From Pseudomonas kermanshahensis (lineage in GTDB: Bacteria > Pseudomonadota > Gammaproteobacteria > Pseudomonadales > Pseudomonadaceae), in contig NZ_JABWRY020000001.1 in NCBI RefSeq assembly GCF_014269205.2, forward strand, positions 2,728,001-2,792,000: a stretch of 64,000 bases of DNA, written 5' to 3'. The notes under the pieces were generated by a model, which did no database searches, was not told the DNA's origin, and was given only the letters and a program-made list of their open reading frames with translations. The stretch's first letter is position 1. Every line of letters begins with the position of its first letter. Of the stretch, positions 7,078 through 52,288 are shown piece after piece. The translations under genes were made by a program, and so were the position numbers.

Positions 7078-7165
7078 GGAAAAGCCCCCGTCATGAACCG
7101 GAAACTTTCAAGGCTAGCCGCTCTACCCCGCCTCGGCGAGTGATTCTGTATCTGGATGTTAGCGA

Positions 7166-8047: not shown

Positions 8048-8136
8048 GACAGGCTAATCCTCGGTAAAAGCGCGCATGCTACTGCGCCGGGACGCCCATC
8101 GCAACGCGGCATGCAGACGCTGCGCACGGTGCACTC

Positions 8137-8153
8137 GGTAACAAAAGGTTACC
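8137..8153. promoter_or_regulatory. Candidate operator in the DyP/symporter divergent region
   Basis: GGTAAC (8137-8142) and GTTACC (8148-8153) form a perfect inverted repeat with a 5-base spacer, about 90 bases upstream of both divergent start codons. The location suits a regulator binding site; no adjacent regulator gene suggests which. Confidence 0.35.
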
Positions 8154-8244
8154 AAGAGGTGGCGCTTTGCAATTAGCTATCAATGCAGTGCCACCTACAC
8201 TCCTCGGAATCCTTTGTGCGACTCCCTGATCCGAGAGCCCCTTC

Positions 8245-9144
8245 ATGACTGCCTCGCCCCTGCTCACCGCATTTCTGCCCCTGGCCCTGGGCATCATCAT
8301 GCTCGGCCTCGGGCTGTCGCTGACCCTGGCCGATTTCGCCCGTGTGGTGAAATACCCCAAGCCTGTGGTGATTGGCCTGGTCTGCCAGATCCTGTTGCTG
8401 CCGCTGGTGTGCTTCCTGATCGCCAACGGCTTTGGCCTGGAGTCCGCCCTGGCGGTGGGGCTGATGCTGCTGGCGGCCTCGCCGGGGGGGACCACGGCCA
8501 ATCTGTTCAGCCACCTGGCCCACGGCGATGTGGCATTGAACATCACCTTGACGGCGGTCAACTCGTTGATTGCGATCCTCACCATGCCGCTGCTGGTGAA
8601 CCTGTCGCTAGGCTGGTTCATGGCCTCGGACCAGGCCATCCCGCTGCAGTTTGCCAAGGTGTTGCAGGTGTTCGCGATTGTCCTCCTGCCGGTGGCGCTG
8701 GGCATGTTGATCCGCCACTTTGCCCCGCGCTTTGCCGCACGCATGGAAAAACCGATGAAGCTGGTGGCGGCACTGTTTCTGGCCTTCACCATCATCCTCG
8801 CGCTGGCCAAGGACTGGCAGACGGTGGTCGAGTACGCCCCCGTGGTAGGCCTGGCTGCCCTGTTGTTCAACGTACTGAGCCTGGCCGTAGGCTACTGGGT
8901 GCCCCGGCTGTTGAAGATTCCCAAGCGCCAGGCCATCGCCATCGGCATGGAAATCGGCATCCACAACGGTACCCTGGCGATCGCGCTGGCCTTGAGCCCT
9001 TCGTTGCTGAACAACGCCACCATGGCGGTGCCGGCGGCGCTGTACAGCCTGATCATGTTCTTCACGGCGGCAGGGTTTGGCTGGTGGGTGAGCCGCGGGC
9101 ACGTGGCAGAAACCGTTGAGGCTGAGGGCAACGCGGTCAACTGA
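8245..9144 (+). CDS. Bile acid:sodium symporter family (BASS) transporter
   Basis: A 299-residue membrane protein with about nine to ten hydrophobic segments. Family marks are visible: GIIMLGLGLSLTLADF near the N-terminus, LMLLAASPGGTTANLFSHLA in the core (the substrate/Na+ crossing region), and AIGMEIGIHNGTLAIALA near the C-terminus. Bacterial members import small organic anions with sodium, such as pantoate or 2-oxoacids, rather than bile acids. It stands alone, facing an unrelated gene downstream. The substrate cannot be told from sequence. Confidence 0.9.
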   Translation: MTASPLLTAFLPLALGIIMLGLGLSLTLADFARVVKYPKPVVIGLVCQILLLPLVCFLIANGFGLESALAVGLMLLAASPGGTTANLFSHLAHGDVALNITLTAVNSLIAILTMPLLVNLSLGWFMASDQAIPLQFAKVLQVFAIVLLPVALGMLIRHFAPRFAARMEKPMKLVAALFLAFTIILALAKDWQTVVEYAPVVGLAALLFNVLSLAVGYWVPRLLKIPKRQAIAIGMEIGIHNGTLAIALALSPSLLNNATMAVPAALYSLIMFFTAAGFGWWVSRGHVAETVEAEGNAVN

Positions 9145-32886: not shown

Positions 32887-32978
32887 GATGCTGTCCTCTG
32901 CAGGGGGTGACAGCGAGACCGTTGAAGCTGGCATGGACTGGCCTCGCAGTGAGGCCGGCAAAAAGGCAGGTTTCATGT

Positions 32979-33070
32979 CCCATCCCTTCGCCGGCATGAT
33001 CCGGATCAGGTTCGAAGGGTCACCGCGCTGCAACGCTCAGCGGTTTCTCAGCCCGTTGCCGGGCTCCCCT
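32979..33070 (-). promoter_or_regulatory. TPP riboswitch (THI element)
   Basis: Read on the minus strand this shows the conserved parts of a thiamin pyrophosphate riboswitch: GGGGAGCCC, CGGGCTGAGA, then ACCCTTCGAACCTGATCCGG and ATGCCGGCGAAGGGA. It ends about 93 bases before the first TenA start codon. TPP binding should lower expression of the two TenA genes when thiamin is plentiful. No obvious T-run terminator follows, so control may be at translation. Confidence 0.95.
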
Positions 33071-33082
33071 TGGTGGCCCACA

Positions 33083-39094: not shown

Positions 39095-40045
39095 ATGACC
39101 GACATCGAGCGCTACGTCCGCGCCGCCACCCGTGACAACACGCGGCGCAGCTACCAGGCTGCCATCGACCATTTCGAGACCCAATGGGGTGGCTTTCTGC
39201 CGGCCACCGCCGAGGGCGTGGCCCGTTACCTGGCCGACCACGCCGAGCAGCACGCGGTGAGCACTTTGCGTCAACGCCTCGCGGCCCTCAGCCAATGGCA
39301 CATCAGCCAGGGCTTCCCCGACCCGACCAAGGCGCCGCTGGTGCGCCAGGTACTGCGCGGTATTCGCACCCTGCACCCGACACCGCCAAAACAGGCTGCA
39401 CCGCTGTTGCTGCAACACCTGCAAACTGCCGTGCAATGCTTCGAGGACGAAGCCCGCCAGGCACGCGAATGCCATGACTTGACCACCCTGCGCCGAGCGC
39501 GTCGCGACACGGCGCTGCTGTTGCTGGGGTTTTGGCGAGGGTTTCGGGGGGATGAGCTGGCGCGCCTGCGCGTCGAGCACATCCAGGCTGAAGCCGGTGT
39601 CGGTATCACCTTGTTTCTGCCTCGCAGCAAGGGTGACCGCGAAGCGCTTGGCGTGCAGCACCGCACGCCGGCACTCAAGGCATTGTGCCCGGTCAGCGCT
39701 TACCTGCAGTGGATCGAAGTGGCTGGCATCGCCCATGGCCCAGTGTTTCGCAAGCTCGACCGCTGGGGCAACCTCAGCGACACGCCGCTCAACAGCAACA
39801 GCCTGGTCGGGCTGCTCCGGCGCATGCTGGAGCGTGCCGGGGTACCGGCGGCGTTATACACCGGCCACTCGCTGCGCCGTGGTTTCGCCACGTGGGCCAC
39901 GGCCAATGGTTGGGAACTGAAGTCGTTGATGAGCTACGTGGGTTGGAAGGACGCCAAGTCAGCACTGCGCTACATCGACTCGGCGCAACGCTTTGGCGAG
40001 TTGGCCGTGTTACCGGCCAGCCAGGTGCACAACCTCATTCCTTGA
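39095..40045 (+). CDS. Tyrosine recombinase / site-specific integrase
   Basis: A phage-integrase-type recombinase of 316 residues from MTDIERYVRAATRD; an upstream in-frame ATG at 39062 would add 11 residues and has no better ribosome-binding site. The N-terminal SAM-like DNA-binding domain (YQAAIDHFETQWGGF) is followed by the catalytic domain with FRGDELARL (Arg I), GHSLRRGFATWA (HxxR) and YVGWKDAKSALRYIDSAQ (Tyr nucleophile). Its 3' end overlaps the opposing dehydrogenase gene by 11 bases. No att sites or tRNA target were found, so it may be a resident recombinase or a relic of an island. Confidence 0.88.
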   Translation: MTDIERYVRAATRDNTRRSYQAAIDHFETQWGGFLPATAEGVARYLADHAEQHAVSTLRQRLAALSQWHISQGFPDPTKAPLVRQVLRGIRTLHPTPPKQAAPLLLQHLQTAVQCFEDEARQARECHDLTTLRRARRDTALLLLGFWRGFRGDELARLRVEHIQAEAGVGITLFLPRSKGDREALGVQHRTPALKALCPVSAYLQWIEVAGIAHGPVFRKLDRWGNLSDTPLNSNSLVGLLRRMLERAGVPAALYTGHSLRRGFATWATANGWELKSLMSYVGWKDAKSALRYIDSAQRFGELAVLPASQVHNLIP

Positions 40046-41759
40046 AGGCGTGGCGCGCAATGCCGCCGATTTCCGGGCGAATTGCATAGAGGTCGCCGGC
40101 ATCCGGGTAGTGCCGCAGCTCCACAGCGTTCATGCCGAACCGCGCGGTGGTGATATACAAGGTGGTCATCCCTTCACCGCCAAAGCAGCAACTGGTCGGG
40201 CGCGTCACCGGCATCACCACCTGGTCGGTCAGGTGGCCGTGACGGTCGTAACGCAGCAGGCAACTGCCATTGAACTGGCACACCCACAGCCCGCCTTCGC
40301 GGTCTAGCGCAATGCCGTCTGGGCGCCCCAGCTCGGCAGGCGTTTCGGCAAACAGCGTAACCTCGGTCAAGCGGCCTTCGGGCAGGTACACGGCGCGGTA
40401 GATGGCGCGGGCGACCGAGTCGACGAAGTAAACGCTGTGCCCGTCTTCCGACCAGGCCAGCCCGTTAGGCAGCGCCATGCCATCGTGGATCACCTGGTCG
40501 CTCAGTTCCGCGTCGAAACGGAACAAGGCGCCGGTCTTGCCACTTGGGGCTTCGTCCATCAGGCCGCTGACGAAACGGCCCTGGGGGTCGCAGGCACCAT
40601 CGTTGAAACGGTAGGTGGAACGCGGGTGAACCGGCACGGAGTATTGCCGCACCTTGCGCGCGTTCACGTCCAGAATGGCGACACTGGAATCCTCGGTGAA
40701 GATTAGGTTGCCCTGGTCGGTCAGGGCCAGGGCGCCAATGCGTGCGGCCGACTCATACAGGCTTTCGACCTCGCCGTCCGGGTTCAACCGATTGATGCGC
40801 CCATCGGTGATATCGACGAAGTACAGCGCGCCGCTGCGCGCGTCCCAAACCGGGCTCTCGCCCAGGTCGGCGCGGGTGTTGGCGACCTTGACCGGTACGT
40901 AGTGGCATTCCTTGATGCGGCTCCAGCGTTCGGCCACTTCCTTGAAGTTGCCCGCCTGTACCCGCGCCAGGTCGCGTGGGTAGCTGACGCCGCTGTTCTC
41001 GGTGAAACGGGTGGCGGTGAACTGCCCGTTGCTGGCACGCAGGATGTAGCCCGTGTCGCGGCACAGCGAGCTGGCCAGGTACAACAACCCTGGGGTGACC
41101 CATTCGGGCTTGAGCTCTTCCGGTGCCTGGGTCACGCCCCACATGCGAGTCTTGGCCACGGGCGAGATGGCATTGACCAGGATGCCGTGCTCCATCCCTT
41201 CCATGCTCAAGGCGTTCATGATGCCGACCTGGGCCATCTTGCCGGCTGAATAGGCCACCAGCCCCGGCTGCGAATAGCGCTGGTACATGGCGCGGTCCGA
41301 GGTGGTCAGCACCACGCGCGGGGCGGCGGAATGCTTGAGGTACTTCCAGGCATGCTTGGCCAGCCACACCGGGGCGTGCACGCTGATGCCCAGCGCGCGC
41401 TGAAGAAAGGCTTCTTCCTGCGCTTCGATGCCCTGGTAATCGACCCAGCCTGCATTGTGAATGAGGATATCCAGTGCGCCAAACTGCGCGATGGCCAGCT
41501 CGATCAATTGTTGGCAGGCGCCTTCGTCTTCCAGTTGCCCGGCATGGGCGATCGCGTTGTAGCCCTTGGCCTGCAGGGCCGCGAGTGCCTGGGCCAGCGC
41601 CGACGGGTCCTCGCCCTGGCCTGCCCGGTCAGTCCCCAGGTCGCTGATGACCACGCGGGCGCCTCGCTCGGCCAGTGCCATGGCGTAAGCCAGGCCCAGC
41701 CCTTGAGCAGCACCGGTGATGATCGCGACTTTGTTCTTGAATGGGTCTGTGATTGGCAT
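40035..41759 (-). CDS. Fusion of short-chain dehydrogenase and SMP-30/gluconolactonase
   Basis: A 574-residue two-domain enzyme. Residues 1-270 form an NAD(P) short-chain dehydrogenase with ITGAAQGLGLA and the catalytic YSAGK. Residues from about 295 form a six-bladed SMP-30/lactonase domain with the metal ligands in LGESPVWD, LPNGLAWSEDG and GRPDGIALD. The order suggests oxidation of a sugar or cyclic alcohol to a lactone, then hydrolysis to the open acid on one chain. A divergent LysR gene lies 190 bases away and is the likely regulator. Substrate unknown. Confidence 0.88.
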   Translation of the reverse strand: MPITDPFKNKVAIITGAAQGLGLAYAMALAERGARVVISDLGTDRAGQGEDPSALAQALAALQAKGYNAIAHAGQLEDEGACQQLIELAIAQFGALDILIHNAGWVDYQGIEAQEEAFLQRALGISVHAPVWLAKHAWKYLKHSAAPRVVLTTSDRAMYQRYSQPGLVAYSAGKMAQVGIMNALSMEGMEHGILVNAISPVAKTRMWGVTQAPEELKPEWVTPGLLYLASSLCRDTGYILRASNGQFTATRFTENSGVSYPRDLARVQAGNFKEVAERWSRIKECHYVPVKVANTRADLGESPVWDARSGALYFVDITDGRINRLNPDGEVESLYESAARIGALALTDQGNLIFTEDSSVAILDVNARKVRQYSVPVHPRSTYRFNDGACDPQGRFVSGLMDEAPSGKTGALFRFDAELSDQVIHDGMALPNGLAWSEDGHSVYFVDSVARAIYRAVYLPEGRLTEVTLFAETPAELGRPDGIALDREGGLWVCQFNGSCLLRYDRHGHLTDQVVMPVTRPTSCCFGGEGMTTLYITTARFGMNAVELRHYPDAGDLYAIRPEIGGIARHAFKE

Positions 41760-41855: not shown

Positions 41856-41951
41856 CCGAGGCTTTGTCACTCGGTGGCCACGCACTATGATGGCCGCCTT
41901 GCAGGGGGGGCGCCTGCCAGGCACCCCGGCAAGTCGATGAAGGAACATAGA

Positions 41952-42893
41952 ATGATCGAGACACGTTTGCTCAGGCAGTTCATCGCCGTGGCCGAAGAAC
42001 TGCACTTCCACAAGGCCGCCATCCGCCTGCACATGGCGCAGCCGCCCCTGAGCCAAGCGATCAACCGCCTTGAAGAAAAGCTCGGCTTCAGCCTGTTTCT
42101 GCGCAACAAGCGCGGGGTCAAGCTGACTGCCGCTGGCATGGCCTTTCTGGAAACCGCCTACCGCACGCTCAAAGAGCTGGAGCAAGGCATCGAGTACGCG
42201 CGCAATGTCTCGGAAGGGATCTGCGGCAAGCTGACCATCACGGCCATCTCCATTGCGTATTACGAGTCGCTGCTCACGACCTTGCGCAGGTTCCGCGAGG
42301 TCTACCCGAATGTACGCCTGACCATCCGCGAGATGCCCTCAGCCTCGCAGGCCAAGGCCTTGATGGCCGGCGAAGCCGACATCGGTTTCATGCGCAAGCT
42401 GCCGATGCCGCCCGATACCATCGAGTCGCGGCTGTTGCTCAACGAGCAGATCATCATGGCCCTGCCCGCCAACCACGCCAGGGCCCATCAGCCGCTGGTC
42501 GACCTGCGCGACTTTGCCGAAGAGGACTTCGTCTTCACCCCGCAAGCCCTGGGCAGTGGCTACCACAGCCAGTTGATCGCCCTGTGCGAATCGGCCGGTT
42601 TCTACCCCAAGGTGGTGCAGGAGGCGGCGCAGATCCACACCCTGATCGGCCTGGTCGCCTGTGGCTTCGGCGTGGCCCTGGTGCCGGAATCGATCGCTTA
42701 CTCGACGCTGCGTGAGCGCGTGCAATTCCGCCCGATCCGCCCGATCAAGGACCAGCCCACCCCAACCATGGGCCTGTACATGAACTGGAACATCCAGAAC
42801 GCTTCGCCGGCCCTGGGCAGTTTCATCGCCATGCTCGACCAGGGCGCGCCGAAGCGCTTCAGCGACACCCTGCAGAACCCTCTGATCCTGTAG
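41952..42893 (+). CDS. LysR family transcriptional regulator
   Basis: A 313-residue LysR regulator. The N-terminal helix-turn-helix is typical (MIETRLLRQFIAVAEELHFH, then QPPLSQAINRLEEKLGFSLF), followed by a ligand-binding domain with EGICGKLTI and VRLTIREMPSASQAKALMAG. AAGGA lies 7 bases before the chosen ATG at 41952; an in-frame ATG at 41937 is possible. It is divergent from the dehydrogenase-lactonase fusion, its most likely target, and converges with the large biosynthetic operon (2 bases apart at the stops), which it could also control. Confidence 0.92.
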   Translation: MIETRLLRQFIAVAEELHFHKAAIRLHMAQPPLSQAINRLEEKLGFSLFLRNKRGVKLTAAGMAFLETAYRTLKELEQGIEYARNVSEGICGKLTITAISIAYYESLLTTLRRFREVYPNVRLTIREMPSASQAKALMAGEADIGFMRKLPMPPDTIESRLLLNEQIIMALPANHARAHQPLVDLRDFAEEDFVFTPQALGSGYHSQLIALCESAGFYPKVVQEAAQIHTLIGLVACGFGVALVPESIAYSTLRERVQFRPIRPIKDQPTPTMGLYMNWNIQNASPALGSFIAMLDQGAPKRFSDTLQNPLIL

Positions 42894-42895
42894 CC

Positions 42896-44731
42896 CTACA
42901 CCGTCAACCGGTACTCACGTAGCCAGGTGTCCAGCGCCAGGGCCGTCTCCAGGTTGTTACGCCGCAGTTGCGAGTTGAAATAGCCCTCGGGCTGGCGCAA
43001 CTCGGCGGCCAGCCGACCATGGTCGATGACCTGGAACACGGGCCTGTCTGGCGCCTTCAGCAACTGCCGAATGCGCTCGCGCAGAAAGCGCTCATAGGCC
43101 AGGTTCGCCGACGTTGGGTACGGGCTTTTGCGCCGTTGCAACACCGCAGGCGGAACCCGGTCGGCGCCGGCCTGCTTGAGCAGCCATTTTTCCTCGCCAT
43201 CCTTGCCCTTGATCGACCACGGCACGTTGTACACGTACTCCACCAGTGAATGATCAGTGAACGGCACCCGCACCTCAAGGCTCGCGGCCATGCTCAGGCG
43301 GTCCTTGCGGTCGAGCAGAATCGGCAGCCAGCGCTGCAGGTGCATGTGGCAGATTTCGCGCATGCGCCGTTCCTGCGGGCTGTCCCCTGACAGATGCTCG
43401 ACGCTGTCCAGGGCCTGGTGATAACAGCTGTCCTGATACTGGGCAAAATCGCAGGCCCGGTTGAACTCAGGGTTGATCAGCTCGGGCTGCAGCAGTTGCA
43501 TGCGCGACAGCCAAGGGAAGCGCGATGCGGCCACGGCCTGCGGGTCGCGGAACCAGGCGTAGCCCCCAAACACTTCATCTGCCGCCTCACCGGAGATGGC
43601 CACCGTGGAATGCGCGCGGATCGCCTTGAACAACAGGTACAACGAGGTGTCTACGTCGCCGAAGGTGGCCGCGCTGTCGTTGGCGCGATACACCGCCAGG
43701 CGGGCCGGGTCCGACACCAACTCCCGGTTGTCGATGAGGATGGTCTGGTGCCGGCTGCCAATATACTGGGCCGCCGCCAGGGCATAAGGCTGGTCACGTT
43801 CGGGGCGAAACGCATCACCCTGAAACTGCTCGGCCTGGCCGACGAAATCCACCGAGAACGAATTCACCGCCCCGCCCTGCTCGGCCACTAACCGCTGTTG
43901 CGCCATGGCGGTCAGCAGGGTCGAGTCCAGGCCACCGGACAGCAGCGAGCAAACCGGCACATCAGCATGCAACTGCTCGCCCAAGGCATTGTCGAGCAGC
44001 TCGCGGGTGTGTTCGACCGTGGTCGTCAGGTCGTCCTGATGCTCACGGCGTTGCAACTGCCAGTAGCGGCTGATCTTCACCTGCCCCTGGGGCCGCCAGG
44101 ACAAACGATGCCCCGGCGGCAATTCGCTGACCCCGCGAAAGGCCGTGCGGGTGGTGCCGCGGGACAGGCTCAAGGCATCCACCAGGCCGACCGCGTCCAG
44201 GGTGCTGGCAACCTCGGGGTGAGCAAGAATCGCCTTGATCTCAGAGCCGAACAGCAGCCCCTGCTGGTGACGGGCATAGTACAGCGGCTTGACCCCCAAG
44301 CGGTCACGCACCAGCAGAAAGTGGCCATCGCGCCCATCGAACACGGCGAAGGCGAACATGCCATTGAGATGGTCGCAGCACAGCTCGCCCCACTCCAGGT
44401 AGGCGTGCAGCACCACCTCGGTGTCGCTGCGTGTTTTAAACACATGCCCGGCCTGGCGCAACCGCTCGCGCAGAGCATGGTGGTTATAGACCTCGCCGGT
44501 GTACACCAGTACGACTTCCTCACCCGTGGCGAAGCGGTAGGTCATGGGCTGCACGCCACCGCTCAGGTCGATGATGGCCAGGCGCCGATGCCCCAGCAAG
44601 GCGTTGCGGTGCTGCCAGCTGCCGCTGGCATCCGGCCCGCGCAAGGCCAGGGTATCGGTCATGGCGCCGAGCACCTGGCGCTGTTGCGCGAGGTCGCGGG
44701 TGTAGTCCACCCAGCCTGTAATTCCGCACAT
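42896..44731 (-). CDS. AsnB-type glutamine-dependent amidotransferase (asparagine synthetase family)
   Basis: A 611-residue class II glutamine amidotransferase joined to an ATP-pyrophosphatase synthetase domain. The catalytic Cys2 is present (MCGITGWVDYTRD), and the PPi loop LLSGGLDSTLL lies near residue 264. In this family glutamine ammonia is passed to an adenylated carboxylate, giving an amide; relatives make asparagine, malonamate (OxyD) or beta-lactams (CarA, Bls). As the last gene of a seven-gene operon with ACP and adenylating enzymes, it probably amidates a pathway intermediate rather than making asparagine (inference). Confidence 0.88.
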   Translation of the reverse strand: MCGITGWVDYTRDLAQQRQVLGAMTDTLALRGPDASGSWQHRNALLGHRRLAIIDLSGGVQPMTYRFATGEEVVLVYTGEVYNHHALRERLRQAGHVFKTRSDTEVVLHAYLEWGELCCDHLNGMFAFAVFDGRDGHFLLVRDRLGVKPLYYARHQQGLLFGSEIKAILAHPEVASTLDAVGLVDALSLSRGTTRTAFRGVSELPPGHRLSWRPQGQVKISRYWQLQRREHQDDLTTTVEHTRELLDNALGEQLHADVPVCSLLSGGLDSTLLTAMAQQRLVAEQGGAVNSFSVDFVGQAEQFQGDAFRPERDQPYALAAAQYIGSRHQTILIDNRELVSDPARLAVYRANDSAATFGDVDTSLYLLFKAIRAHSTVAISGEAADEVFGGYAWFRDPQAVAASRFPWLSRMQLLQPELINPEFNRACDFAQYQDSCYHQALDSVEHLSGDSPQERRMREICHMHLQRWLPILLDRKDRLSMAASLEVRVPFTDHSLVEYVYNVPWSIKGKDGEEKWLLKQAGADRVPPAVLQRRKSPYPTSANLAYERFLRERIRQLLKAPDRPVFQVIDHGRLAAELRQPEGYFNSQLRRNNLETALALDTWLREYRLTV

Positions 44732-44741
44732 GGTTCGCCCC

Positions 44742-46127
44742 TTACACCTGAAGACGACGGGTAGGCAGCAGGCCGATCAACGCCTGCACACGTTTGGCGA
44801 TGTCCAGCAACTGTTGCTCGCTGTCGCGTCGGCCCATGATCTGTATCGCCAGGGGCGCCTTGCCGTCAGCGCTGAGGGCGATCGGCACGGTAATCGCCGG
44901 CAGGCCGCTGAAACTGGCCAGAGGGGTGAAACCGATTTTCTGGGCGTAGTCGTGATCGTCCGGAGACGGAATGGTCGAATCACCTGGTTGTGGGCTACGC
45001 CGGTCGAAGGGCCGGTTCGGGTCCATCGGGAAAATAACGACATCCACCTGGGCGGCCTCGAACCAGGCATCGATACCCGCCCGCACGGCGTCCATGCGGG
45101 CATGAATGCGCGAGTAGTCGCTGTCGCTTACCCCTTCACCCACCTTGAGCGCGCTAAGCGTTGACCAATGCAGTTCGCAGTCGAAGCGCCGCGCCCAGGC
45201 CGCAGATGCCAGCCAAGCGTCGCGCGCGCACAGCTGCCAAGCATCGCCACGGCAGGCCCACAGGTCGGGCATGGCCACTTCACGCGGGGCCATGCCCAGG
45301 TCGGCCAGTGCAATACGGGCCTGGCTCAACATGTCGAGCATTGGTGCGCTGGTCAGCGCAGGGTCGAGCGCGTGTTCAAGCACGCCGACACGGTACTGCT
45401 GCTTGAGCGGCTGCTGATCGCCCAGCAACGGCCCCAAGCCCAGCATCGGCAGCAGCAGGGCAAGGTCGTCGGCGCTGCGAGTCACCCAACCCAAGGCGTC
45501 CATGCGTGGCGACAGCGGGAATACACCGGCCAGGCTGGCGGCCTTGTGGGTCATGCGCAGGCCGACCATGCCACAGTGGGACGCCGGCCAACGCACCGAG
45601 CCCAGCACATCGGTACCCAACGAGATGTCGCACAGGCCTGCAGCCACGGAAACCGCAGAACCGGTGCTGGAACCCGATGGGTCGATGGTCGGGAAATGCG
45701 GGTTGCGGCAGCCTGCGCCGAACGCGATGTTCAGCTCGGTGGTCGCCACCTTGCTGGTCAGCGCGATACGCGGGTCGAGGTGGCTCAGCGCCTCGGCGCT
45801 GCGTTGCGGGTAGTGACGGTAGCTGCGCAGCCCCAGGCGGGTCGGCAGGCCGGCGACGTCCACGGTGTCCTTCACCCCCAGCCGGACCCACGGCGCTTCG
45901 GCTGGGCGGGTGCTGGTCAGGCAGCGATAGTGGCTGTCGGCGTGATCGCGCCACGCCTCATACTGTGCAGCCCAATCAGCCGCCAGCGCAGGGCTGCGTT
46001 CCAGCAGTTCGAGGCGCTTGCGCAGGCTTAGGCCGAGGTATTCGGGCTGTTCGCGGCCACTGGCCAGCGGCGCACCGCAGTGGTTCAGGTAATGGGCGAT
46101 GGTGCCCTGGGTATCAGCGTGGCTCAT
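44742..46127 (-). CDS. Amidase-signature family hydrolase
   Basis: A 461-residue amidase. The Ser-cisSer-Lys triad is readable: Lys86 in GVKDTVDV, Ser153 in SGSSTGS, and the nucleophile Ser177 in GTDVLGSVRW. Family members hydrolyse or transfer amides (GatA, FAAH, biosynthetic acyltransfer amidases). Its start overlaps the short adenylating enzyme by 14 bases and it ends 10 bases before the AsnB-type gene, so it belongs to the operon. It might deprotect the product, remove an amino-acid tag, or serve as resistance; the sequence does not decide. Confidence 0.87.
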   Translation of the reverse strand: MSHADTQGTIAHYLNHCGAPLASGREQPEYLGLSLRKRLELLERSPALAADWAAQYEAWRDHADSHYRCLTSTRPAEAPWVRLGVKDTVDVAGLPTRLGLRSYRHYPQRSAEALSHLDPRIALTSKVATTELNIAFGAGCRNPHFPTIDPSGSSTGSAVSVAAGLCDISLGTDVLGSVRWPASHCGMVGLRMTHKAASLAGVFPLSPRMDALGWVTRSADDLALLLPMLGLGPLLGDQQPLKQQYRVGVLEHALDPALTSAPMLDMLSQARIALADLGMAPREVAMPDLWACRGDAWQLCARDAWLASAAWARRFDCELHWSTLSALKVGEGVSDSDYSRIHARMDAVRAGIDAWFEAAQVDVVIFPMDPNRPFDRRSPQPGDSTIPSPDDHDYAQKIGFTPLASFSGLPAITVPIALSADGKAPLAIQIMGRRDSEQQLLDIAKRVQALIGLLPTRRLQV

Positions 46128-47109
46128 GGGTGTAGTCCTTGACAGTGGATGAGGCGGCCCACGGTTGGGGCTTGCCAGTGGCAGACAGCGGCAGGTGTGC
46201 GACCCGGCGCACGGCGACCGGTCGCGGGTGGTGCGCAGGCCAGTGCTTGAGCGCTTCGCGCACGGCCTGTTCGGTTAACGTTGGCGAACTGAACAGCACT
46301 TCGAACGCTTCGGCGCGCAACCCATCGCGCACCGCTACGCAGGCCAGGGCCGGGCATTGCAGGCGTTGGCCGAGTTCGCTGGCCAGGCGCGCCAGGTCGA
46401 GCCGAACCCCGTTGACCTTGATCAGGCTGCTGGCCCGGCCCAGCCATTGAAAGCGTCGCGCGTCCAATGGCAGTACCAGGTCATCGCAACGATGATGGTG
46501 TGCCGGGGTTGCAGCGCCCTGCTCCCGCGCGATGCGTGGGCTGCTGACGTCCAGCGGGCCGGCTGCGCCGATCGGGCTTAGCAACTCGACATCGCTCAGC
46601 AGCGTCCACAGTTGCTCTGCGGTACTCTGCGCATCCAGCGCGCGATAGGCCATGGCGCCGGTTTCGGTGGCACCCAGCAGCTCGATGAAGCGCACCTGCG
46701 GCCCTGCGAAGCGGTGCACGGTGGCCAATGCGTCCGGTGGCAACAGCGATGCGCTGTGCACCACCAGTACTGAACGCCGTGCTGACAGGCGCGCCAGCAG
46801 TGCAGGCAAGAGCCGCCAGGTGCTGGCAATGGCGAGGATCACACAGGGCCCGTCGCCATCGAGTTGCGGTAAAAGCTGCTGTTCCAGCGAGCAGGCCTGT
46901 AACCGCGCGCTCAGCCATTGCGCACCGACCTCGCCCAGGATCATCCCGTAGCTGTGGCAACTCGGCGCGAATGACAGAATCTCGGTCGCGTCAGCCGCCC
47001 AGCGGCCGAGAATCAGCGCGGCCTCGTCGACCATCTGCGCGTGGCTGCGTAGCCAGTGGCGTGGCGCGCCGGTGGAGCCCGACGTGGTGAACAGATGATC
47101 GCCGCTCAC
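46114..47109 (-). CDS. Short AMP-forming adenylating enzyme (ANL superfamily), lacking the N-terminal subdomain
   Basis: A 331-residue ANL enzyme. It begins almost directly at the nucleotide-binding A3 motif (FTTSGSTGAPRHW, residues 7-19), then has LLGATETGAM near 144, the hinge region SSLIKVNGVRLDLARLASEL near 225, and the catalytic-Lys motif LPLSATGKPQPW near the end. Typical family members are 500-600 residues; the N-terminal 150-200 residues are missing and cannot be encoded upstream because the ACP gene overlaps (GTGA). It most likely loads a carboxylic acid onto the adjacent ACP. Start is GTG. Confidence 0.83.
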   Translation of the reverse strand: MSGDHLFTTSGSTGAPRHWLRSHAQMVDEAALILGRWAADATEILSFAPSCHSYGMILGEVGAQWLSARLQACSLEQQLLPQLDGDGPCVILAIASTWRLLPALLARLSARRSVLVVHSASLLPPDALATVHRFAGPQVRFIELLGATETGAMAYRALDAQSTAEQLWTLLSDVELLSPIGAAGPLDVSSPRIAREQGAATPAHHHRCDDLVLPLDARRFQWLGRASSLIKVNGVRLDLARLASELGQRLQCPALACVAVRDGLRAEAFEVLFSSPTLTEQAVREALKHWPAHHPRPVAVRRVAHLPLSATGKPQPWAASSTVKDYTHEPR

Positions 47110-47390
47110 GGGGTGGCCTGCAGGGTCAATTGGTCTTCGCGTTTCTGGGCGACGAACTGCTCCATCTTTTCCAGTGTTTCAAACCAGTAGCGAACGTCGT
47201 CACTCAGGTAATCCACTTCGATGGCGAAACAGGCTTCAATGGCGGTGATGACTTCGACGGCCATCAGGCTGTCGAAGCGTTCGCCTAGAAAATCGCGGAA
47301 GCTGTCACGCTTATCGATGGCGTTGACCTCGTCGCCGAGTAGTTGCGCCAGTGCCTGACGAATCTGCTGCTCAATAGAAAGGTTGCTCAC
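47106..47390 (-). CDS. Free-standing acyl carrier protein
   Basis: A 94-residue acidic helical protein with the phosphopantetheine site in GERFDSLMAVEVITAIEACF (Ser41 of the DSL motif). It resembles discrete carrier proteins of secondary-metabolite clusters rather than the fatty-acid ACP, whose site usually reads LGADSLD. It overlaps both neighbours by 4 bases, the tautomerase-like gene upstream and the short adenylating enzyme downstream, so the three are made together. It should hold the acyl intermediate as a thioester. Confidence 0.9.
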   Translation of the reverse strand: MSNLSIEQQIRQALAQLLGDEVNAIDKRDSFRDFLGERFDSLMAVEVITAIEACFAIEVDYLSDDVRYWFETLEKMEQFVAQKREDQLTLQATP

Positions 47391-47794
47391 GCGCCTGGTT
47401 TTCCTTGTTGATGGTGGGCATTGATCAATGCCGTTCCCGCGCTGTAGAACACGTGTTCTGGCAGGATCGGATCAAACTGCAAATAGATGAAAGCGTTCGG
47501 GTAGTGACTGACCAGGCAACGGTGCAGGCCTTCGGCCAAGGCCGCATGGGCCAGCCCGTCGCGCGCCACCGACAGGGTGATGCGCAGGTAGAACTGCAAC
47601 GCCACGCCGCTGCCATCCACGGTCGGCAACGGCATGCCGGCGCTGAACACGCACCCCGGTTCCAGCGGATTGAAAAACACCATGCAGTGCGCGGTATCGG
47701 CGCCCTGCGCTTTCAGCAGGCGGGTGAACGCCAGGGCCAGGCGCTTGCGCTCGATGGGCTGCAGTGGTGCGCAGGTAACAGTAATGGTTGGCAT
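47387..47794 (-). CDS. Tautomerase-like protein with N-terminal proline
   Basis: A 135-residue protein starting MPTITVTCAPLQPIERKRLA. After removal of Met the N-terminal Pro would be the catalytic base of the tautomerase superfamily (4-oxalocrotonate tautomerase, CHMI, MIF). The later VFFNPLEPGCVFSAGMPLP and FIYLQFDPILPEHVFYSAG are not diagnostic to me. The first beta strand and Pro fit the family, but the assignment is tentative. It lies 9 bases downstream of the repeat-protein gene and overlaps the ACP gene by 4 bases. Confidence 0.6.
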   Translation of the reverse strand: MPTITVTCAPLQPIERKRLALAFTRLLKAQGADTAHCMVFFNPLEPGCVFSAGMPLPTVDGSGVALQFYLRITLSVARDGLAHAALAEGLHRCLVSHYPNAFIYLQFDPILPEHVFYSAGTALINAHHQQGKPGA

Positions 47795-47803
47795 GCCTGC
47801 TCC

Positions 47804-49519
47804 TCACGACAGCTGCAGGTTGGGCAGGTGCTGACGCCTGCCTTCGGCAAACGCCTGCAACAGGCGCCCCAGGCAATCGGACAGTGCGTCGTGGCCCTCC
47901 AGGTACAGCGGCGACCAGGCATGGCCTTGGCCGCTGCGCACCTTGTCGAGAAAGAACTGCAGGTGCGCGCGGTCGACCGGCAACCCCTGCGCGGCGCCAA
48001 ACGCCACGGCCTGGTAGGTGCTGAGCAAATCAGGGATGCGCTGCCCCAGGTTGGCGAAGCCGCCCTGGCGCACCTTGTGCGCAACCAGCAGTTCGTTTGC
48101 CTGCTCGCGCACATCCCAGCCCACATGGTTCAGGCAGATCAAGGCTTGCAGGCTGGCACGCAAGGACGCCTGCCCTCGTGGGTAGGCGGCGTGCCCACCT
48201 TGCTGAGCGCAACTGGCCACAAAGGCCTCCAGCGCCACGAGGTCGACCCCAGCGTTATTGCCCAGTTGCTGGAGGATCGCCACCGCAGACGCCGTGGACA
48301 CCAAGTCCGACCCGCGCCCCTCCCAGAACCCGAAGCCACCATCGGGGTTCTGCAATGAGGCCAGCCAGTGCCCGACCGCCTTGCGCGCCGCTGGCTGGCC
48401 GGCGAAGGCGCCCGCCGCCAGGCCCCAATTGGTGCAGCGGACTTCAGCGCCCCGCCCTGGCATGTACATGAGCCCAGGCTCGTTAGGCATCTGGCAGCCT
48501 TCGATCCAGTGCAAGGCTGCCGCCCGCTGCGCAGCGCTCAGCTGATCGCCAAGCACGGCAGCCGCCGTGGTCAGCACATCCGCCGCGCTGTCGATTTGCC
48601 GATAGGTGTAGCCACCCTGAGGCAGCGCCAAGGTCGCGATGAACCGTGCAATGTCATCTGCCAGGTGGGCCACCGGCTCTCCCAACGCCTTGAGCGAGCC
48701 CACCGCGCAAAAAGCGGCCCAGACGTCCTCGCCGTCATAGCCCTGCCAACGCACGAAAGCGCCACTGGGCCGACGCAGTGCGTCGATCCAGGCGATACAC
48801 GCGTGGCGCGCCAACGGCTGCGCGTGCAATGCCGCAAGGCTAGCCGTGGCGCGGTAGGTCGCCCACAGGCACGGCTGCTCGGCAGCCTCGCTGAAACGAA
48901 AGCCGCCGCTTTCCACCTGCTGCGCCTGCAACCAGGCAATCAACCGCGGCAGGTCCCACCGCGGTGCGGGCAGCCCTTGCTGGGCCAGGGCTCGTGCGGC
49001 CATTACGCCGTAGAAGCAGGCACGGGTGTCGGCCAAGTTGCGCTGGGCAAAGTCCGCGGACCAACTGAGGCCGCCATTGCTGCACTGCAGCCCTTCCAGC
49101 CAGGCGTACAACGCCGGGGCATCGGCCACCTGCCCCTGGCACACCTCGATTAACGTGCGCACGGCATAGTGGGTGGCCCAGACATCCGCCGTCTGCCCAG
49201 GGCACATGGCGTAAGCATCACCGTCGAACAGCGTTTGCAGCCAATCGGCAGTTTGGGCGCCATGGTCGATGGCGATACCCAGGTCCTTGAGCGTTTCGGT
49301 GCAATAAAAAGTCGCCCAGGCGTCGGATGGCATGCCCTTGCTCCAGGCGAACCCCCCGTCGCGGTTACGCCGGGACTGGATATAGCTGTGCAGGGCCGGC
49401 GTATCGACGCTGTCGAGGCGCTCGACCCAGGCCAGGCTGCGGATCGCGGCGTACGTGCACCACAAGTCAGGCTGGCCGTTGCCCAGGCCGTGCCCTTGGG
49501 CAAGGGGTGACGTGGTCAT
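47804..49519 (-). CDS. Prenyltransferase/squalene-cyclase-like repeat protein
   Basis: A 571-residue protein made almost wholly of about 45-50-residue alpha-alpha repeats with glycine-rich turns: NRDGGFAWSKG, CSNGGLSWSAD, VESGGFRFSEA, NPDGGFGFWEG, and Trp-rich helices such as VWATHYAVRTL and LWATYRATASL. This is the alpha/alpha toroid of protein prenyltransferase beta subunits and triterpene/diterpene class II cyclases. I do not see a DxDD acid motif, so class II cyclase chemistry is not assured. Its start overlaps the end of the PaaK-like gene by 4 bases. It could cyclise, bind or chaperone a hydrophobic intermediate. Confidence 0.82.
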   Translation of the reverse strand: MTTSPLAQGHGLGNGQPDLWCTYAAIRSLAWVERLDSVDTPALHSYIQSRRNRDGGFAWSKGMPSDAWATFYCTETLKDLGIAIDHGAQTADWLQTLFDGDAYAMCPGQTADVWATHYAVRTLIEVCQGQVADAPALYAWLEGLQCSNGGLSWSADFAQRNLADTRACFYGVMAARALAQQGLPAPRWDLPRLIAWLQAQQVESGGFRFSEAAEQPCLWATYRATASLAALHAQPLARHACIAWIDALRRPSGAFVRWQGYDGEDVWAAFCAVGSLKALGEPVAHLADDIARFIATLALPQGGYTYRQIDSAADVLTTAAAVLGDQLSAAQRAAALHWIEGCQMPNEPGLMYMPGRGAEVRCTNWGLAAGAFAGQPAARKAVGHWLASLQNPDGGFGFWEGRGSDLVSTASAVAILQQLGNNAGVDLVALEAFVASCAQQGGHAAYPRGQASLRASLQALICLNHVGWDVREQANELLVAHKVRQGGFANLGQRIPDLLSTYQAVAFGAAQGLPVDRAHLQFFLDKVRSGQGHAWSPLYLEGHDALSDCLGRLLQAFAEGRRQHLPNLQLS

Positions 49520-50832
49520 TGCTTGCCCCCCACGAAGCGCAGGTTGGTCTTCTTCCAGCTTTTTTGCGAGCCACCGCTCTTGTTGATGGCCGACAAGTTG
49601 TTGACGAACAGCACACGGCTCCAGCGCAGCCCCATCAGTTGCTCGGAACGTGCCAGCAGCTGCGCTTGCAATGGGCCTTCCTGGGCGTTGTCCCAGTGCA
49701 CGTCACGTTCAAGGATTAACGCGGCGCTGTCGTTCTGGCGATCGATTTCGATCACATAACCGGTGGCGTCGCAGGCGCCGTAGACCACCTCTTCGACGGC
49801 GCGAATCTCAAGGTCCACCCCGGCCACCGCAATGCTGTCGCTGTCGCGGCCATTGACCAACAGGCTGGGGCTGCTCTGCCCGGCTTGCCAAGGCGCGGTA
49901 AGGGTGACGCTGTCGCCGGTGTCCAGCCGCAGTAACGGCCGCGCGTACAGGTTCAGCGGGGTGACGACGAGGCGGCCGGTCAGGCCTTCGGCGGGCGTTA
50001 CCAGCCTGCCGTCCGGCAACAGCAGCTCGAAATAATTGGTGGCCGTGGCCAGGCGCATCTGCTGGTCCGCGCCTACGGCTGCCAGCGTGCCGGTCTCGGT
50101 ACTGCCATAACTGGCATCGTGTACCTCGCAGTGCCACCCGCGGGCCAAACGGTCACGAAACGGCTGGGTGTTGACCTCGCCCAGCAGCATGATCGTGCGC
50201 ACCGACTGGGCAAACGTGTCGAGCAGCTCCCGCTGCTTGAGGTAGCGGGTCAGTTGCACCAGTACGCCGGGGGCGATGAACAGCACCGTGGGCCGGTAGG
50301 TGTCGAAGGTCGTGCACACCCGTTCCCAGTCGGTGATGCCGGTGGTAAAGGGATAGAGCCGTACATGCGACACGTCGAGGTATTCGCAGACGTTGGCGAT
50401 CAGGTCGCCGACCGGCACGATGTCCGATGGCATCAGGTTGGCCACCCGCGCCCCGGGCTGCAGCACCGCTCGCCAGTGGCTGGCGACGCTGACGGCATTC
50501 CAGATGATGTCGTGTTTCAGGCGCGGGGTTGGGGTTGGCTCGCCGGTGGTGCCGGTGGTGGCGTAGTACTTGGCCGCATCGCCAAGGGCTACGGTGCAAA
50601 ACGCCAGGGGTTGGCTTTTCAGCGCGGCCTTGGCGGTCAGCGGCAATTGCTGGAACGCTGTGAAGCTGTAGGGGCCAATCCCTGCGTAATGGCTACTGTG
50701 TTGTGCACGCGTCCAGACTGCTTGCAACTTGCGTTCATAGAATGCGGCATCGGGCACACGCCCGACCTGCTGTTGAAGTTCGCCCTCGGCATCCTTCAAC
50801 ACGCCGAAATCCTTATCACCATGAACTAACAT
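49516..50832 (-). CDS. PaaK-like AMP-forming adenylating enzyme
   Basis: A 438-residue ANL enzyme close to the phenylacetate-CoA ligase family. Motifs: YYATTGTTGEPTPTPR (about 88-103, the phosphate-binding loop), DASYGSTETGTLAAVG near 240, then LYARPLLRLDTGDSVTL (the hinge/A7-A8 region). PaaK enzymes activate aryl or small carboxylic acids. As the first gene of the seven-gene operon (ribosome-binding GAGAGGG before the ATG), it should choose the starter acid. A second adenylating enzyme lies four genes on, so two acids may be joined. Confidence 0.86.
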   Translation of the reverse strand: MLVHGDKDFGVLKDAEGELQQQVGRVPDAAFYERKLQAVWTRAQHSSHYAGIGPYSFTAFQQLPLTAKAALKSQPLAFCTVALGDAAKYYATTGTTGEPTPTPRLKHDIIWNAVSVASHWRAVLQPGARVANLMPSDIVPVGDLIANVCEYLDVSHVRLYPFTTGITDWERVCTTFDTYRPTVLFIAPGVLVQLTRYLKQRELLDTFAQSVRTIMLLGEVNTQPFRDRLARGWHCEVHDASYGSTETGTLAAVGADQQMRLATATNYFELLLPDGRLVTPAEGLTGRLVVTPLNLYARPLLRLDTGDSVTLTAPWQAGQSSPSLLVNGRDSDSIAVAGVDLEIRAVEEVVYGACDATGYVIEIDRQNDSAALILERDVHWDNAQEGPLQAQLLARSEQLMGLRWSRVLFVNNLSAINKSGGSQKSWKKTNLRFVGGKQ

Positions 50833-50882
50833 CGACTCGCCCTCTCGAATAAACAGTGCAGAGAATTGGCGAGCGACGGGGG

Positions 50883-50899
50883 TTAAGTAAAATACTTAA
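50883..50899. promoter_or_regulatory. Candidate operator of the biosynthetic operon
   Basis: TTAAGTA (50883-50889), AAA, and TACTTAA (50893-50899) form a perfect inverted repeat about 51-67 bases upstream of the first gene's start, overlapping a possible -10 (TACTAT on the minus strand). The surrounding 320-base gap (50833-51154) is AT-rich and gene-free. Confidence 0.45.
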
Positions 50900-51095
50900 T
50901 AGTAAGTAGCGGTGAGAGTCGGACGGTATTACTGGGCCGAAATAGAGCCTTTTGCGTGGGTTGTATGTAGTGCTTTTCTGATCGAAATCAGCGATTCGGC
51001 CTTTGTTTATGGCGAGATATCAAACAAAGATAATTTCCATATTTGCCAAGACTCATAACTTCGGCATGGACGTGAAGGCGCGGCCTTAGGGCGCG

Positions 51096-51115
51096 AAAGG
51101 GCTGCAAAGCAGCCC
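51096..51115 (-). terminator. Intrinsic terminator of the glycerate kinase gene
   Basis: GGGCTGC (51099-51105), AAA, and GCAGCCC (51109-51115) make a perfect 7-bp stem, followed on the minus strand by TTT and CGCG. It lies about 40 bases after the kinase stop. Confidence 0.65.
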
Positions 51116-51154
51116 CCACACTAGTTGCACTTACACGGAAATCTCTGACCGCGC

Positions 51155-52288
51155 TTACACCGCGCAGCGCCACAGCCGGGCGATATCACCGGCGCGCGCC
51201 TGCAGCAGCTCGCGGGCGTTGGCGCACGCCTGCTCCAGGCTCATCGGCCCGCTCGCCAACGCAAAAGCCGCGTCGATGCCATGGCCATACAACTGCTGAT
51301 ACCCCTCCCCCAGCGTGCCTGCCAGCACCACCACCGGTACACCATGGCGCTTGGCGACCCGTGCCACGCCCATTGGCGTCTTGCCACGTAGGGTCTGGGC
51401 ATCGAAACGCCCCTCGCCGGTCAGCACCAGGTCGGCGCCTTGTACCAGCCCGTCCAGGCCGGCCAACTCAGCCACCACCTCGACGCCAGGTCGGAACTGC
51501 GCGCCCATGAACGCCTTGGCCGCAAAGCCCATGCCGCCTGCAGCGCCGCAGCCCGGGAAATCACGCACGTCCTCGCCCAGCAATTGCGCACAGTGATCGG
51601 CAAAGTGCCCCAGTGCCTGGTCCAGTGCTTCTACTTGCTGCGGGTTTGCCCCTTTCTGCGGGCCGAATATTGCCGAAGCGCCATTGGCACCGCAGAGTGG
51701 GTTGTCGACGTCGGCCGCAACCTCGACCTGGACCTCGGCCAGCCGAGGGTCGAGGTCGCTGGCATCGATACGTGCCAGCTTTGCCAGGGCCAGCCCCCCT
51801 TCTTCCAGTGCTTGCCCCTCGGCATCCAGCAGCCGCAGCCCCAAGGCGCGCAGCATGCCACTGCCGCCGTCATTGGTCGCGCTGCCGCCAATGGCCAAGA
51901 CAATGCGGCGGGCACCCGCAGCCAAGGCGGCGGCGATCAGTTCGCCCGTACCCCAGGTGCTGCTGCGGCAGGCATCACGCTGCTGGGTGGGCACCAATTG
52001 CAGGCCACTGGCCTGGGCCATTTCGATAATCGCCGTGCGGCTCTGCGGCAGCCAACCCCAGCCGGCCTCGACGCTGTGCCCCAACGGCCCACGTACAGCC
52101 AGGCGGCGTAATTCGCCCTGGCTGGCGGCCAAGATGGCGTCCATGGTGCCTTCACCGCCGTCGGCCATGGGGCATTCGACCAGTTCGGCATCCGGCCACA
52201 CCTCGGCCAGGCCGGTGGCAATGGCGCGGGCGACACCGGCAGCGTCGAGGCTGTCCTTGAACGAGTCGGGGGCGATGACGATCTTCAT
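51155..52288 (-). CDS. garK: Glycerate kinase (GarK/GlxK family)
   Basis: A 377-residue kinase beginning MKIVIAPDSFKDSLDAAGVA, with CPMADGGEGTMDAILAAS and VLAIGGSATNDGGSGMLRALG, all hallmarks of glycerate 2-kinase, which phosphorylates D-glycerate to 2-phosphoglycerate. I use ATG 52288; a longer reading to 52384 is not family-like. It follows the CdaR-type regulator on the same strand (114 bases) and a sugar-acid transporter lies divergently, the classic set for glucarate/galactarate/glycerate use. Confidence 0.92.
   Translation of the reverse strand: MKIVIAPDSFKDSLDAAGVARAIATGLAEVWPDAELVECPMADGGEGTMDAILAASQGELRRLAVRGPLGHSVEAGWGWLPQSRTAIIEMAQASGLQLVPTQQRDACRSSTWGTGELIAAALAAGARRIVLAIGGSATNDGGSGMLRALGLRLLDAEGQALEEGGLALAKLARIDASDLDPRLAEVQVEVAADVDNPLCGANGASAIFGPQKGANPQQVEALDQALGHFADHCAQLLGEDVRDFPGCGAAGGMGFAAKAFMGAQFRPGVEVVAELAGLDGLVQGADLVLTGEGRFDAQTLRGKTPMGVARVAKRHGVPVVVLAGTLGEGYQQLYGHGIDAAFALASGPMSLEQACANARELLQARAGDIARLWRCAV

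Follow-up and report, generated by a model that had tools for sequence, protein, structure and literature searches.

An accessory Pseudomonas operon built on a conserved five-gene core and probably directing synthesis of an undescribed natural product

Introduction

The core of dipyrimicin is a 2,2'-bipyridine made by an NRPS/PKS route. Its terminal amide is proposed to be formed by the AsnB-type enzyme Dip5, and the cluster includes an amidohydrolase, as does the operon described here, but a toroid or tautomerase is not named for it in the accessible part of the report (PMC13122635). The trichostatin and benzohydroxamate cassettes of the TsnB type (TsnB9, SaHAT) employ an enzyme of the same AsnB clade on a free carboxylic acid. 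According to the accessible text, SaHAT takes the free acid with ATP, not a CoA thioester, and the transferase stands beside an amidooxygenase with its accessory subunit (PMC13418202). For the furanolides cyanobacterin and maculalactone, 4-coumaric acid is supplied by a dedicated ammonia-lyase and activated by a ligase, and the mac cluster carries a DAHP synthase (PMC13288894, PMC12395478, accessible portions). We considered the furanolide pathway for the shared tyrosine ammonia-lyase, ligase and DAHP synthase. It was ruled out by its bond-forming enzymes. One is of the TPP type; the other, the furanolide synthase, bears a 3-oxoacyl-ACP synthase annotation in the accessible portion of the source (PMC8777810); neither is among the seven genes of our locus. 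The terms "acyl carrier", "prenyltransferase" and "tautomerase" are all absent from the main text of PMC13288894. Within the open-access full-text literature, we found no described pathway with the same gene set.

Results

The window, a stretch of 64,000 nucleotides from Pseudomonas kermanshahensis, contains seven open reading frames, all on the minus strand, which together span 42896..50832. In transcription order, the intergenic spacing is -4, +9, -4, -4, -14 and +10 bases, i.e., between -4 and +10 bases except for one overlap of 14 bases. The operon and its flanking genes are listed below.

49516..50832, minus strand: gene 1, core; PaaK-like ANL ligase, 438 aa; Pfam AMP-binding PF00501 at 30.0 bits (cut-off 29.9), best PDB relatives the PaaK-like ligases 9s3l and 6siw
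47804..49519, minus strand: gene 2, core; double alpha/alpha-toroid protein, 571 aa; Pfam Prenyltrans at 159 bits
47387..47794, minus strand: gene 3, core; Pro1 protein of the tautomerase superfamily with a predicted cis-CaaD-like fold, 135 aa; Pro after Met and fold match
47106..47390, minus strand: gene 4, core; free carrier protein (ACP), 94 aa; PP-binding PF00550 at 34 bits, above cut-off; Asp40-Ser41-Leu42
46114..47109, minus strand: gene 5, core; very short ANL ligase, 331 aa; PF00501 at 36.1 bits, TTSGSTG motif, partial match to TIGR02372
44742..46127, minus strand: gene 6, tailoring; amidase-signature protein, 461 aa; Pfam Amidase PF01425 at 141 bits, conserved Lys and Ser residues
42896..44731, minus strand: gene 7, tailoring; AsnB-type glutamine amidotransferase, 611 aa; TIGR01536, Cys2, relative 7ylz
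41937..42893, plus strand: LysR regulator, flanking, convergent with the operon, role uncertain; PF00126 and PF03466
40035..41759, minus strand: SDR fused to an SMP-30/gluconolactonase domain, flanking, probably outside the pathway; PF00106 and PF08450

The original prediction had placed the same seven genes on the minus strand, assigned their classes and read them as one dedicated operon with two adenylating enzymes, a carrier protein and an AsnB-type amidotransferase. The layout agrees with ours, and the classes are borne out by Pfam and NCBIfam scores or, for the tautomerase-like protein, by the proline and the fold match. The operon is short (8 kb) and is present as one copy in its own genome. 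Its GC content of 0.60-0.68 shows no anomaly against 0.52-0.67 in the surroundings, and a promoter scan of 50600-51300 gave none on the operon strand.

Neither ligase comes near the cut-off of any named NCBIfam family that it matches. Gene 1 reaches 52 bits against the phenylacetate-CoA ligase PaaK (TIGR02155, cut-off 646.3). Gene 5 starts almost at the P-loop motif, with TTSGSTG at residue 8 and its PF00501 alignment beginning at profile position 169, and at least 100 N-terminal residues of its relatives are absent. Among NCBIfam families, gene 5 best matches the 4-coumarate ligase TIGR02372, which we take to be the photoactive-yellow-protein type of short 4-coumarate CoA ligase; the match begins at profile position 100 and scores 51 bits, far under the cut-off of 334.7, while the homologue from Rhizobium rhizogenes scores 82 bits. 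The ACP carries its phosphopantetheine serine in a DSL motif found in 49 of 49 aligned sequences. Cispentacin, considered because the ACP matches AmcB, was ruled out at a score of 20 bits (cut-off 80).

Gene 3 has no Pfam or NCBIfam match. Proline follows methionine in all 40 sequences of the alignment, which come from the window and 39 loci, and the AF2 model (pLDDT 90) has cis-CaaD as its best PDB match (probability 1.00, TM mostly 0.6-0.8, 15-18% identity). The N-terminal proline together with the modeled tautomerase fold places the protein in the cis-CaaD group of the tautomerase superfamily. In the alignment of the 40 sequences, His36 is invariant and Arg78 is kept in 97%, both being candidate residues for the remainder of a cis-CaaD active site.

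The core (genes 1-5) is complete in 49 of the 55 related loci; four of the six loci with an incomplete core are interrupted by contig ends. The homologues thus do occur together, contrary to the outcome that the original prediction had named as its refutation, and this recurrence argues that the grouping is more than chance. A script placed 48 of the 49 complete cores on a single strand in a single gene order; in the 49th (L041), the PaaK and toroid genes share one open stretch that the script could not separate. Individually, the PaaK-like ligase was found in 53, the Pro1 protein in 51, the ACP in 50 and the short ligase in 51 of the 55 loci; an amidase homologue occurred in the fetched stretch of 35 loci and the AsnB-type protein in 24. 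The median gap is -4 bases at the PaaK/toroid, Pro1/ACP and ACP/short-ligase boundaries, with start codons chosen by script near those of the window genes. Pairwise distances of four core proteins co-vary with r of 0.83-0.96 over 45 sequences (the window and 44 loci) and 0.79-0.94 over the 32 sequences from outside Pseudomonas, the latter being reached by none of 1000 permutations.

The order of the core is fixed across soil bacteria, including such distant genera as Streptomyces and Rhizobium. Among the toroid matches are four plasmid records, all from R. rhizogenes, three of which cover 94% or more of the protein, and no phage records. Other core loci contain ATP-grasp or reductase-type genes; the amidase and AsnB-type enzyme are one of several tailoring modules on the common core. 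Resormycin was considered for the ATP-grasp loci and set aside, the literature found, in its accessible parts, not being about resormycin genes.

In the tailoring amidase, Lys86 is conserved in 97% and Ser153, Ser154 and Ser177 in 100% of 36 sequences, in line with the Lys/cis-Ser/Ser triad of the amidase signature family. Gene 7 matches Pfam Asn_synthase (290 bits) and GATase_7 (151 bits) and NCBIfam TIGR01536 (545 bits, cut-off 267), and Cys2 and SGGLDS (S265-G-G-L-D-S270) occur in 25 of 25 sequences, as in glutamine-dependent AsnB-type enzymes. Its closest solved relative is the trichostatin hydroxyamidotransferase 7ylz at 526 bits versus 153 bits for E. coli AsnB, so that plain amidation is a function that we infer. 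The enzyme might instead move hydroxylamine from glutamyl hydroxamate, like TsnB9 and SaHAT, and yield a hydroxamate. However, neither an amidooxygenase nor its accessory subunit is present among the seven operon genes and both neighbors of gene 7 (amidase and LysR), and the five core genes are of other kinds than the TsnB-type cassette. The similar enzyme Dip5 is also hypothesized to perform plain amidation in the accessible text (PMC13122635). A hydroxamate product is therefore unlikely.

Because DAHP synthase and MIO genes are both absent from the window operon, we argue its precursor from relatives. Of the 55 loci, 34 carry a DAHP synthase gene in the stretch that was fetched (26 class II, 8 class I). 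Comparison of three class II enzymes from Pseudomonas with eight from actinobacteria gave 36-44% identity, which suggests, by this measure rather than by a tree, that more than one kind was recruited. L024 additionally carries aroA and aroC. A MIO lyase/aminomutase gene is found within the fetched stretch in 25 loci. Among 21 scanned MIO proteins, four (L026, L030, L050, L059) exceed the tyrosine 2,3-aminomutase cut-off, seven best match the tyrosine ammonia-lyase BagA/FevW (618-809 bits, below the cut-off of 1000) and ten fall in neither tyrosine class; a tyrosine-aminomutase type for the whole group holds for only the four and was rejected. The linked DAHP synthases and MIO genes, with tyrosine classes among the latter, point to a precursor that is probably tyrosine-derived, perhaps 4-coumarate.

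Bagremycin and ferroverdin biosynthesis, with the tyrosine ammonia-lyase BagA and the ligase BagE, resembles these loci through the seven MIO proteins and a weak match of the window PaaK-like ligase to BagE/FevW (51 bits), but scores stay under the cut-offs of 1000 and 800 bits and the window contains no MIO gene. The latter difference also separates the window operon from C-1027, whose SgcC4 we take 2rjr to be; the tyrosine aminomutase of L030 matches 2rjr at 722 bits. Several counts speak against a tyrosine-derived precursor. In the window genome, the sole MIO homologue has 38% identity and the sole class II DAHP synthase 43-44%. Of the 14 Pseudomonas-clade loci, five have a DAHP synthase and none a MIO gene. 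Thirteen of 16 genomes examined lack a MIO gene beside the core; 11 of these have homologues elsewhere (29-45% identity) and two have none. As candidates for a linked MIO gene, L067 and L068 were left out, since L067 is on a different contig (340180 bases) from L009 (406316 bases), and L068 (333081 bases) from L019 (282972 bases).

The four aminomutase-like proteins could also mean that the core builds a beta-amino-acid unit, i.e., beta-tyrosine on the ACP, with the window operon as a version taking its acid from another source. A KamA-like radical SAM protein directly before PaaK in L057 (171 of 525 bits, under the cut-off), with a relative in L058, is in line with this idea. We regard it as quite unlikely, given the ammonia-lyase-like and unclassified majority of the MIO proteins, the lack of a MIO gene in every one of the 14 Pseudomonas-clade loci and its absence from the Streptomyces clusters L021 and L041, which otherwise have the same gene order.

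The operon occurs in six of 298 Pseudomonas genomes, and operon-free sites were also found; it is accessory in Pseudomonas and inserted at a definable site, adjoining a glycerate kinase gene. One carrier is the plant-associated strain P. capeferrum WCS358 (L008), and operon-free sister genomes are usable as controls. The SDR-lactonase fusion and LysR are found with the operon in every one of the 13 Pseudomonas-clade loci that reach that far (L008-L019, L049). Two genomes without the operon (L074, L075) nevertheless have both genes at this site, and a third (L078) has the lactonase part alone, so both were dropped as pathway genes; the fusion is full-length in operon-free G118 and G194. Some link to the operon is nevertheless possible, because both genes stand beside it in L019 and L076 even though the recombinase and glycerate kinase genes are missing from those stretches. 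Degradation pathways often include PaaK-like and amidase genes, and the neighboring glycerate kinase gene would also suit a LysR-controlled catabolic operon in which the amidase and ligases break down an aromatic amide. This is very unlikely, as the ACP, the AsnB-type amidotransferase, the DAHP synthases linked in relatives and aroA/aroC in L024 are anabolic, and a ring-opening gene is absent among the seven.

The toroid protein shows the alpha/alpha toroid fold of the protein prenyltransferase beta subunit and a strongly conserved loop from C342 to R361. In that beta subunit, the zinc triad consists of Asp-x-Cys and His. At the level of sequence, the 18-row toroid alignment contains no invariant D-x-C pair, and the DxDD motif of class II terpene cyclases is missing from the window protein and present in one of 50 homologues (residue 561 of L029). 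A role as genuine terpene cyclase or protein prenyltransferase, with a meroterpenoid as product, is the least probable alternative and was rejected on these motifs and on gene context, with no isoprenoid gene among the seven.

Discussion

The best reading of the locus is an ACP-dependent route to an aromatic carboxamide. We give about even credence to the full statement that the seven genes form one horizontally acquired biosynthetic operon with a small, probably tyrosine- or shikimate-derived, carboxamide-terminated product. The dedicated operon, its conserved synteny and the lack of a matching pathway in the open-access literature uphold the original prediction in part; its activation of two acids, the loading of one of them onto the ACP and the amidation of the product stay at the level of proposals. 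To it we add the probable tyrosine/shikimate precursor, the insertion of the operon as an accessory unit at a definable site and the place of the amidase and AsnB-type enzyme as one module among several.

Gene content, fold classes, catalytic residues, gene order and linkage in relatives suggest a pathway whose reaction order is our proposal. The 4-coumarate-ligase-like gene 5 product would load an aromatic acid, perhaps 4-coumarate, onto the ACP, and the PaaK-like ligase would activate a second acid and pass it to the toroid protein. The latter may join or cyclize the acids via its conserved C342-R361 loop, after which the Pro1 protein could shift or hydrate a conjugated double bond. The amidase might trim or release an amide, and the AsnB-type enzyme would convert a free carboxylic acid to the amide with glutamine nitrogen and ATP.

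More tentatively, and with slightly less than even confidence, the five-gene core may represent a new assembly logic. Aromatic acids activated by the ligases would be joined or cyclized by a non-terpene toroid of the terpene-cyclase/prenyltransferase fold, assisted by a free ACP and a protein of the cis-CaaD type, and AsnB, ATP-grasp or reductase-type modules would finish the product in each bacterium. Since the core recurs in fixed order in distant soil bacteria, it probably makes a real, still undescribed natural product. If so, the core would mark an undescribed small-molecule family in Pseudomonas, Streptomyces, Amycolatopsis, Nocardia, Rhizobium and others, including the core on a plasmid of the crown-gall biocontrol strain Agrobacterium K84, and the toroid would represent new chemistry for a well-studied fold.

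Operon organization and conservation of the five-gene core

The seven genes occupy the minus strand at 42896–50832, where the original prediction had placed them. Their open reading frames are, in transcription order:

First, minus strand, PaaK-like ligase, 438 aa
Second, minus strand, toroid protein, 571 aa
Third, minus strand, Pro1 protein, 135 aa
Fourth, minus strand, ACP, 94 aa
Fifth, minus strand, short ligase, 331 aa
Sixth, minus strand, amidase, 461 aa
Seventh, minus strand, AsnB-type enzyme, 611 aa

The intergenic gaps along transcription are −4, +9, −4, −4, −14, and +10 bases, as expected of one translationally coupled operon. Pfam assignments were obtained for six of the seven proteins, and the Pro1 protein had no family match. 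Its predicted AF2 structure (pLDDT 90, built from 25 aligned sequences) resembles structures of the tautomerase superfamily, cis-3-chloroacrylic acid dehalogenase included. Proline directly follows the initiator methionine in all 40 Pro1-protein sequences.

The toroid protein search, which scored just the 7995 candidates with the most shared words, identified 310 relatives. Among the best 120, those carrying the name Pseudomonas share 62–99% identity with the query, and those from Streptomyces, Amycolatopsis, Nocardia, and others about 50%. When one genome per species was scanned, 55 related loci (L-numbers) emerged, in which profiles detected the toroid (55), PaaK (53), the Pro1 protein and the short ligase (51 each), and the ACP (50). 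The first five genes, the core, are complete in 49 loci. Contig ends truncate four of the six incomplete ones (L020, L046, L049, L051); L053 comprises the toroid and a weak short-ligase match, and L056 the PaaK, toroid, and Pro1 genes, the last located upstream on the opposite strand. Among the 49 complete loci, a script found 48 with all five core genes on one strand and in one order. It was unable to order L041, where a single open stretch spans PaaK and toroid; tblastn indicated the usual order.

The distances of four core proteins (PaaK, toroid, ACP, and short ligase) are mutually correlated, with r of 0.83–0.96 (45 sequences, the window plus 44 loci). The range is 0.79–0.94 in the 32 non-Pseudomonas loci, where none of 1000 permutations equalled any observed r. 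Judging from these sequences, the core genes have travelled together. The predicted biosynthetic operon is borne out as a real and conserved set. Searches of open-access full text turned up no described pathway with this operon, which is undescribed as far as they reach.

Tailoring genes and alternative layouts

Within the fetched stretches (up to 10 kb on either side), an amidase homologue is found in 35 of the 55 loci and AsnB in 24. The amidase accompanies AsnB in 23 of these; the remaining one, L046, is truncated by its contig. AsnB is placed after the amidase in the Pseudomonas clade (L008–L020 and L049, n = 14) (with the same order in L026). Of the 11 AsnB loci outside this clade, all but L026 have the gene upstream of the core, on the other strand (10 loci).

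In a second layout, the core is joined by ATP-grasp ligases (ATP-grasp match in 9/55 loci) and one more ligase of PaaK type, with a diaminobutyrate aminotransferase in four loci. It also resides on plasmid pAtK84c of Agrobacterium K84 and on plasmid pColt5.8a of R. rhizogenes, where an IS256 transposase gene separates the ACP and short-ligase genes. The locus on pAtK84c, a large plasmid of strain K84 (L065, CP000631.1, 6586–19319), contains a core relative together with acetyltransferase, amidase, ligase-SDR fusion, and ATP-grasp genes; the record gives no product name. The third layout, in eight loci, includes class I DAHP synthase and aldehyde-dehydrogenase-like, short AMP-binding, and allene-oxide-cyclase-like proteins. 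Since other loci bear the second or third layout, AsnB and amidase are just one tailoring option among several.

Eight clusters (L033, L036, L037, L038, L042, L043, L044, and L047) add two proteins to the core, one allene-oxide-cyclase-like and the other a short additional AMP-binding protein. A KamA-like protein directly precedes PaaK in L057 (5876–7231), its best match being lysine 2,3-aminomutase at 171 bits, below the cut-off of 525; L058 encodes a relative (7162–8601).

Possible precursor

DAHP synthase is encoded within 34 of the 55 fetched stretches (class II, 26; class I, 8), comprising 5 of 14 Pseudomonas-clade loci and 29 of 41 others. Three class II enzymes from Pseudomonas loci share 36–44% identity with eight actinobacterial ones and 43–45% with the class II enzyme of the window genome itself. 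Judged by identity rather than from a tree, one kind of gene was recruited on more than one occasion.

MIO genes (ammonia-lyase/aminomutase family) are present in 25 of the 55 loci, counting two fragments (L054 and L061) and L057, which is shortened at its contig end, and in none of the Pseudomonas clade. Four of the 21 scanned MIO proteins passed the tyrosine 2,3-aminomutase cut-off (L026, L030, L050, L059). The BagA/FevW tyrosine ammonia-lyase was the best match, below cut-off, for seven (L024, L033, L036, L037, L042, L047, L060), and ten matched the general histidine ammonia-lyase family alone (about 300–335 bits) or nothing at E 1e-90. Both tyrosine types can yield 4-coumarate. The best named match of the short ligase is 4-coumarate ligase, under its cut-off, and L024 additionally carries aroA and aroC. 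Together with the linked DAHP synthase, these matches point to a putative precursor from tyrosine or shikimate.

However, several observations count against such a precursor: the window operon contains neither an MIO nor a DAHP synthase gene, the window genome has one MIO homologue (38% identity), 13 of 16 genomes checked have no MIO gene adjacent to the core, and none is present in the Streptomyces clusters L021 and L041, whose gene order is otherwise unchanged. Alternatively, the DAHP synthase could possibly be a resistant target copy.

Insertion site and evolutionary history

Other features of the window are:

32966–33080, minus strand, TPP riboswitch (71.3 bits vs. gathering score 54.3)
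39095–40045, plus strand, Phage-integrase-family recombinase adjoining the operon region
40035–41759, minus strand, single frame encoding an SDR and an SMP-30 lactonase domain

Relatives of the recombinase occur in 150 of 199 Pseudomonas genomes (its own included), and 92% identical recombinases adjoin the three operon-free sites. In L019 and L076, the SDR and the lactonase correspond to two distinct stretches, and L078 has only the lactonase part. The Streptomyces clusters L024, L025, and L029 carry an SMP-30-like lactonase gene after that for DAHP synthase; it shares about 25–28% identity with the lactonase of the window.

In the window and all 11 loci L008–L018, the operon is flanked by a glycerate kinase gene on one side and a LysR gene on the other. 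A kinase-side MFS gene is inserted in six (L009, L011, L013, L015, L016, L018), accompanied in four by DAHP synthase. In the operon-free L074 and L075, the LysR and glycerate kinase genes are about 98 and 167 bases apart; L078, a third genome without the operon, also lacks the LysR and SDR parts. The toroid was found in 6 of 298 evenly drawn Pseudomonas genomes, including the window's own. A 50-toroid tree groups the 13 Pseudomonas-clade sequences together (100/100 support), within a part whose other members are Actinomycetota and one Hyphomicrobiales sequence; its deeper branches are weak. L011 is labelled Pantoea (sp. Ap-967), yet its toroid falls inside the Pseudomonas clade and its operon and flanks are also Pseudomonas-type; the genome is perhaps misnamed.

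The rare occurrence, the operon-free sites, and the toroid tree identify the operon as an accessory acquisition. Identity to the window's LysR is 88–97% in L008–L018 but 78–80% in the operon-free L074 and L075, whereas that of the SDR-lactonase shows no split (78–93% vs. 81–82%). Given this difference, the operon may have co-opted the LysR gene.
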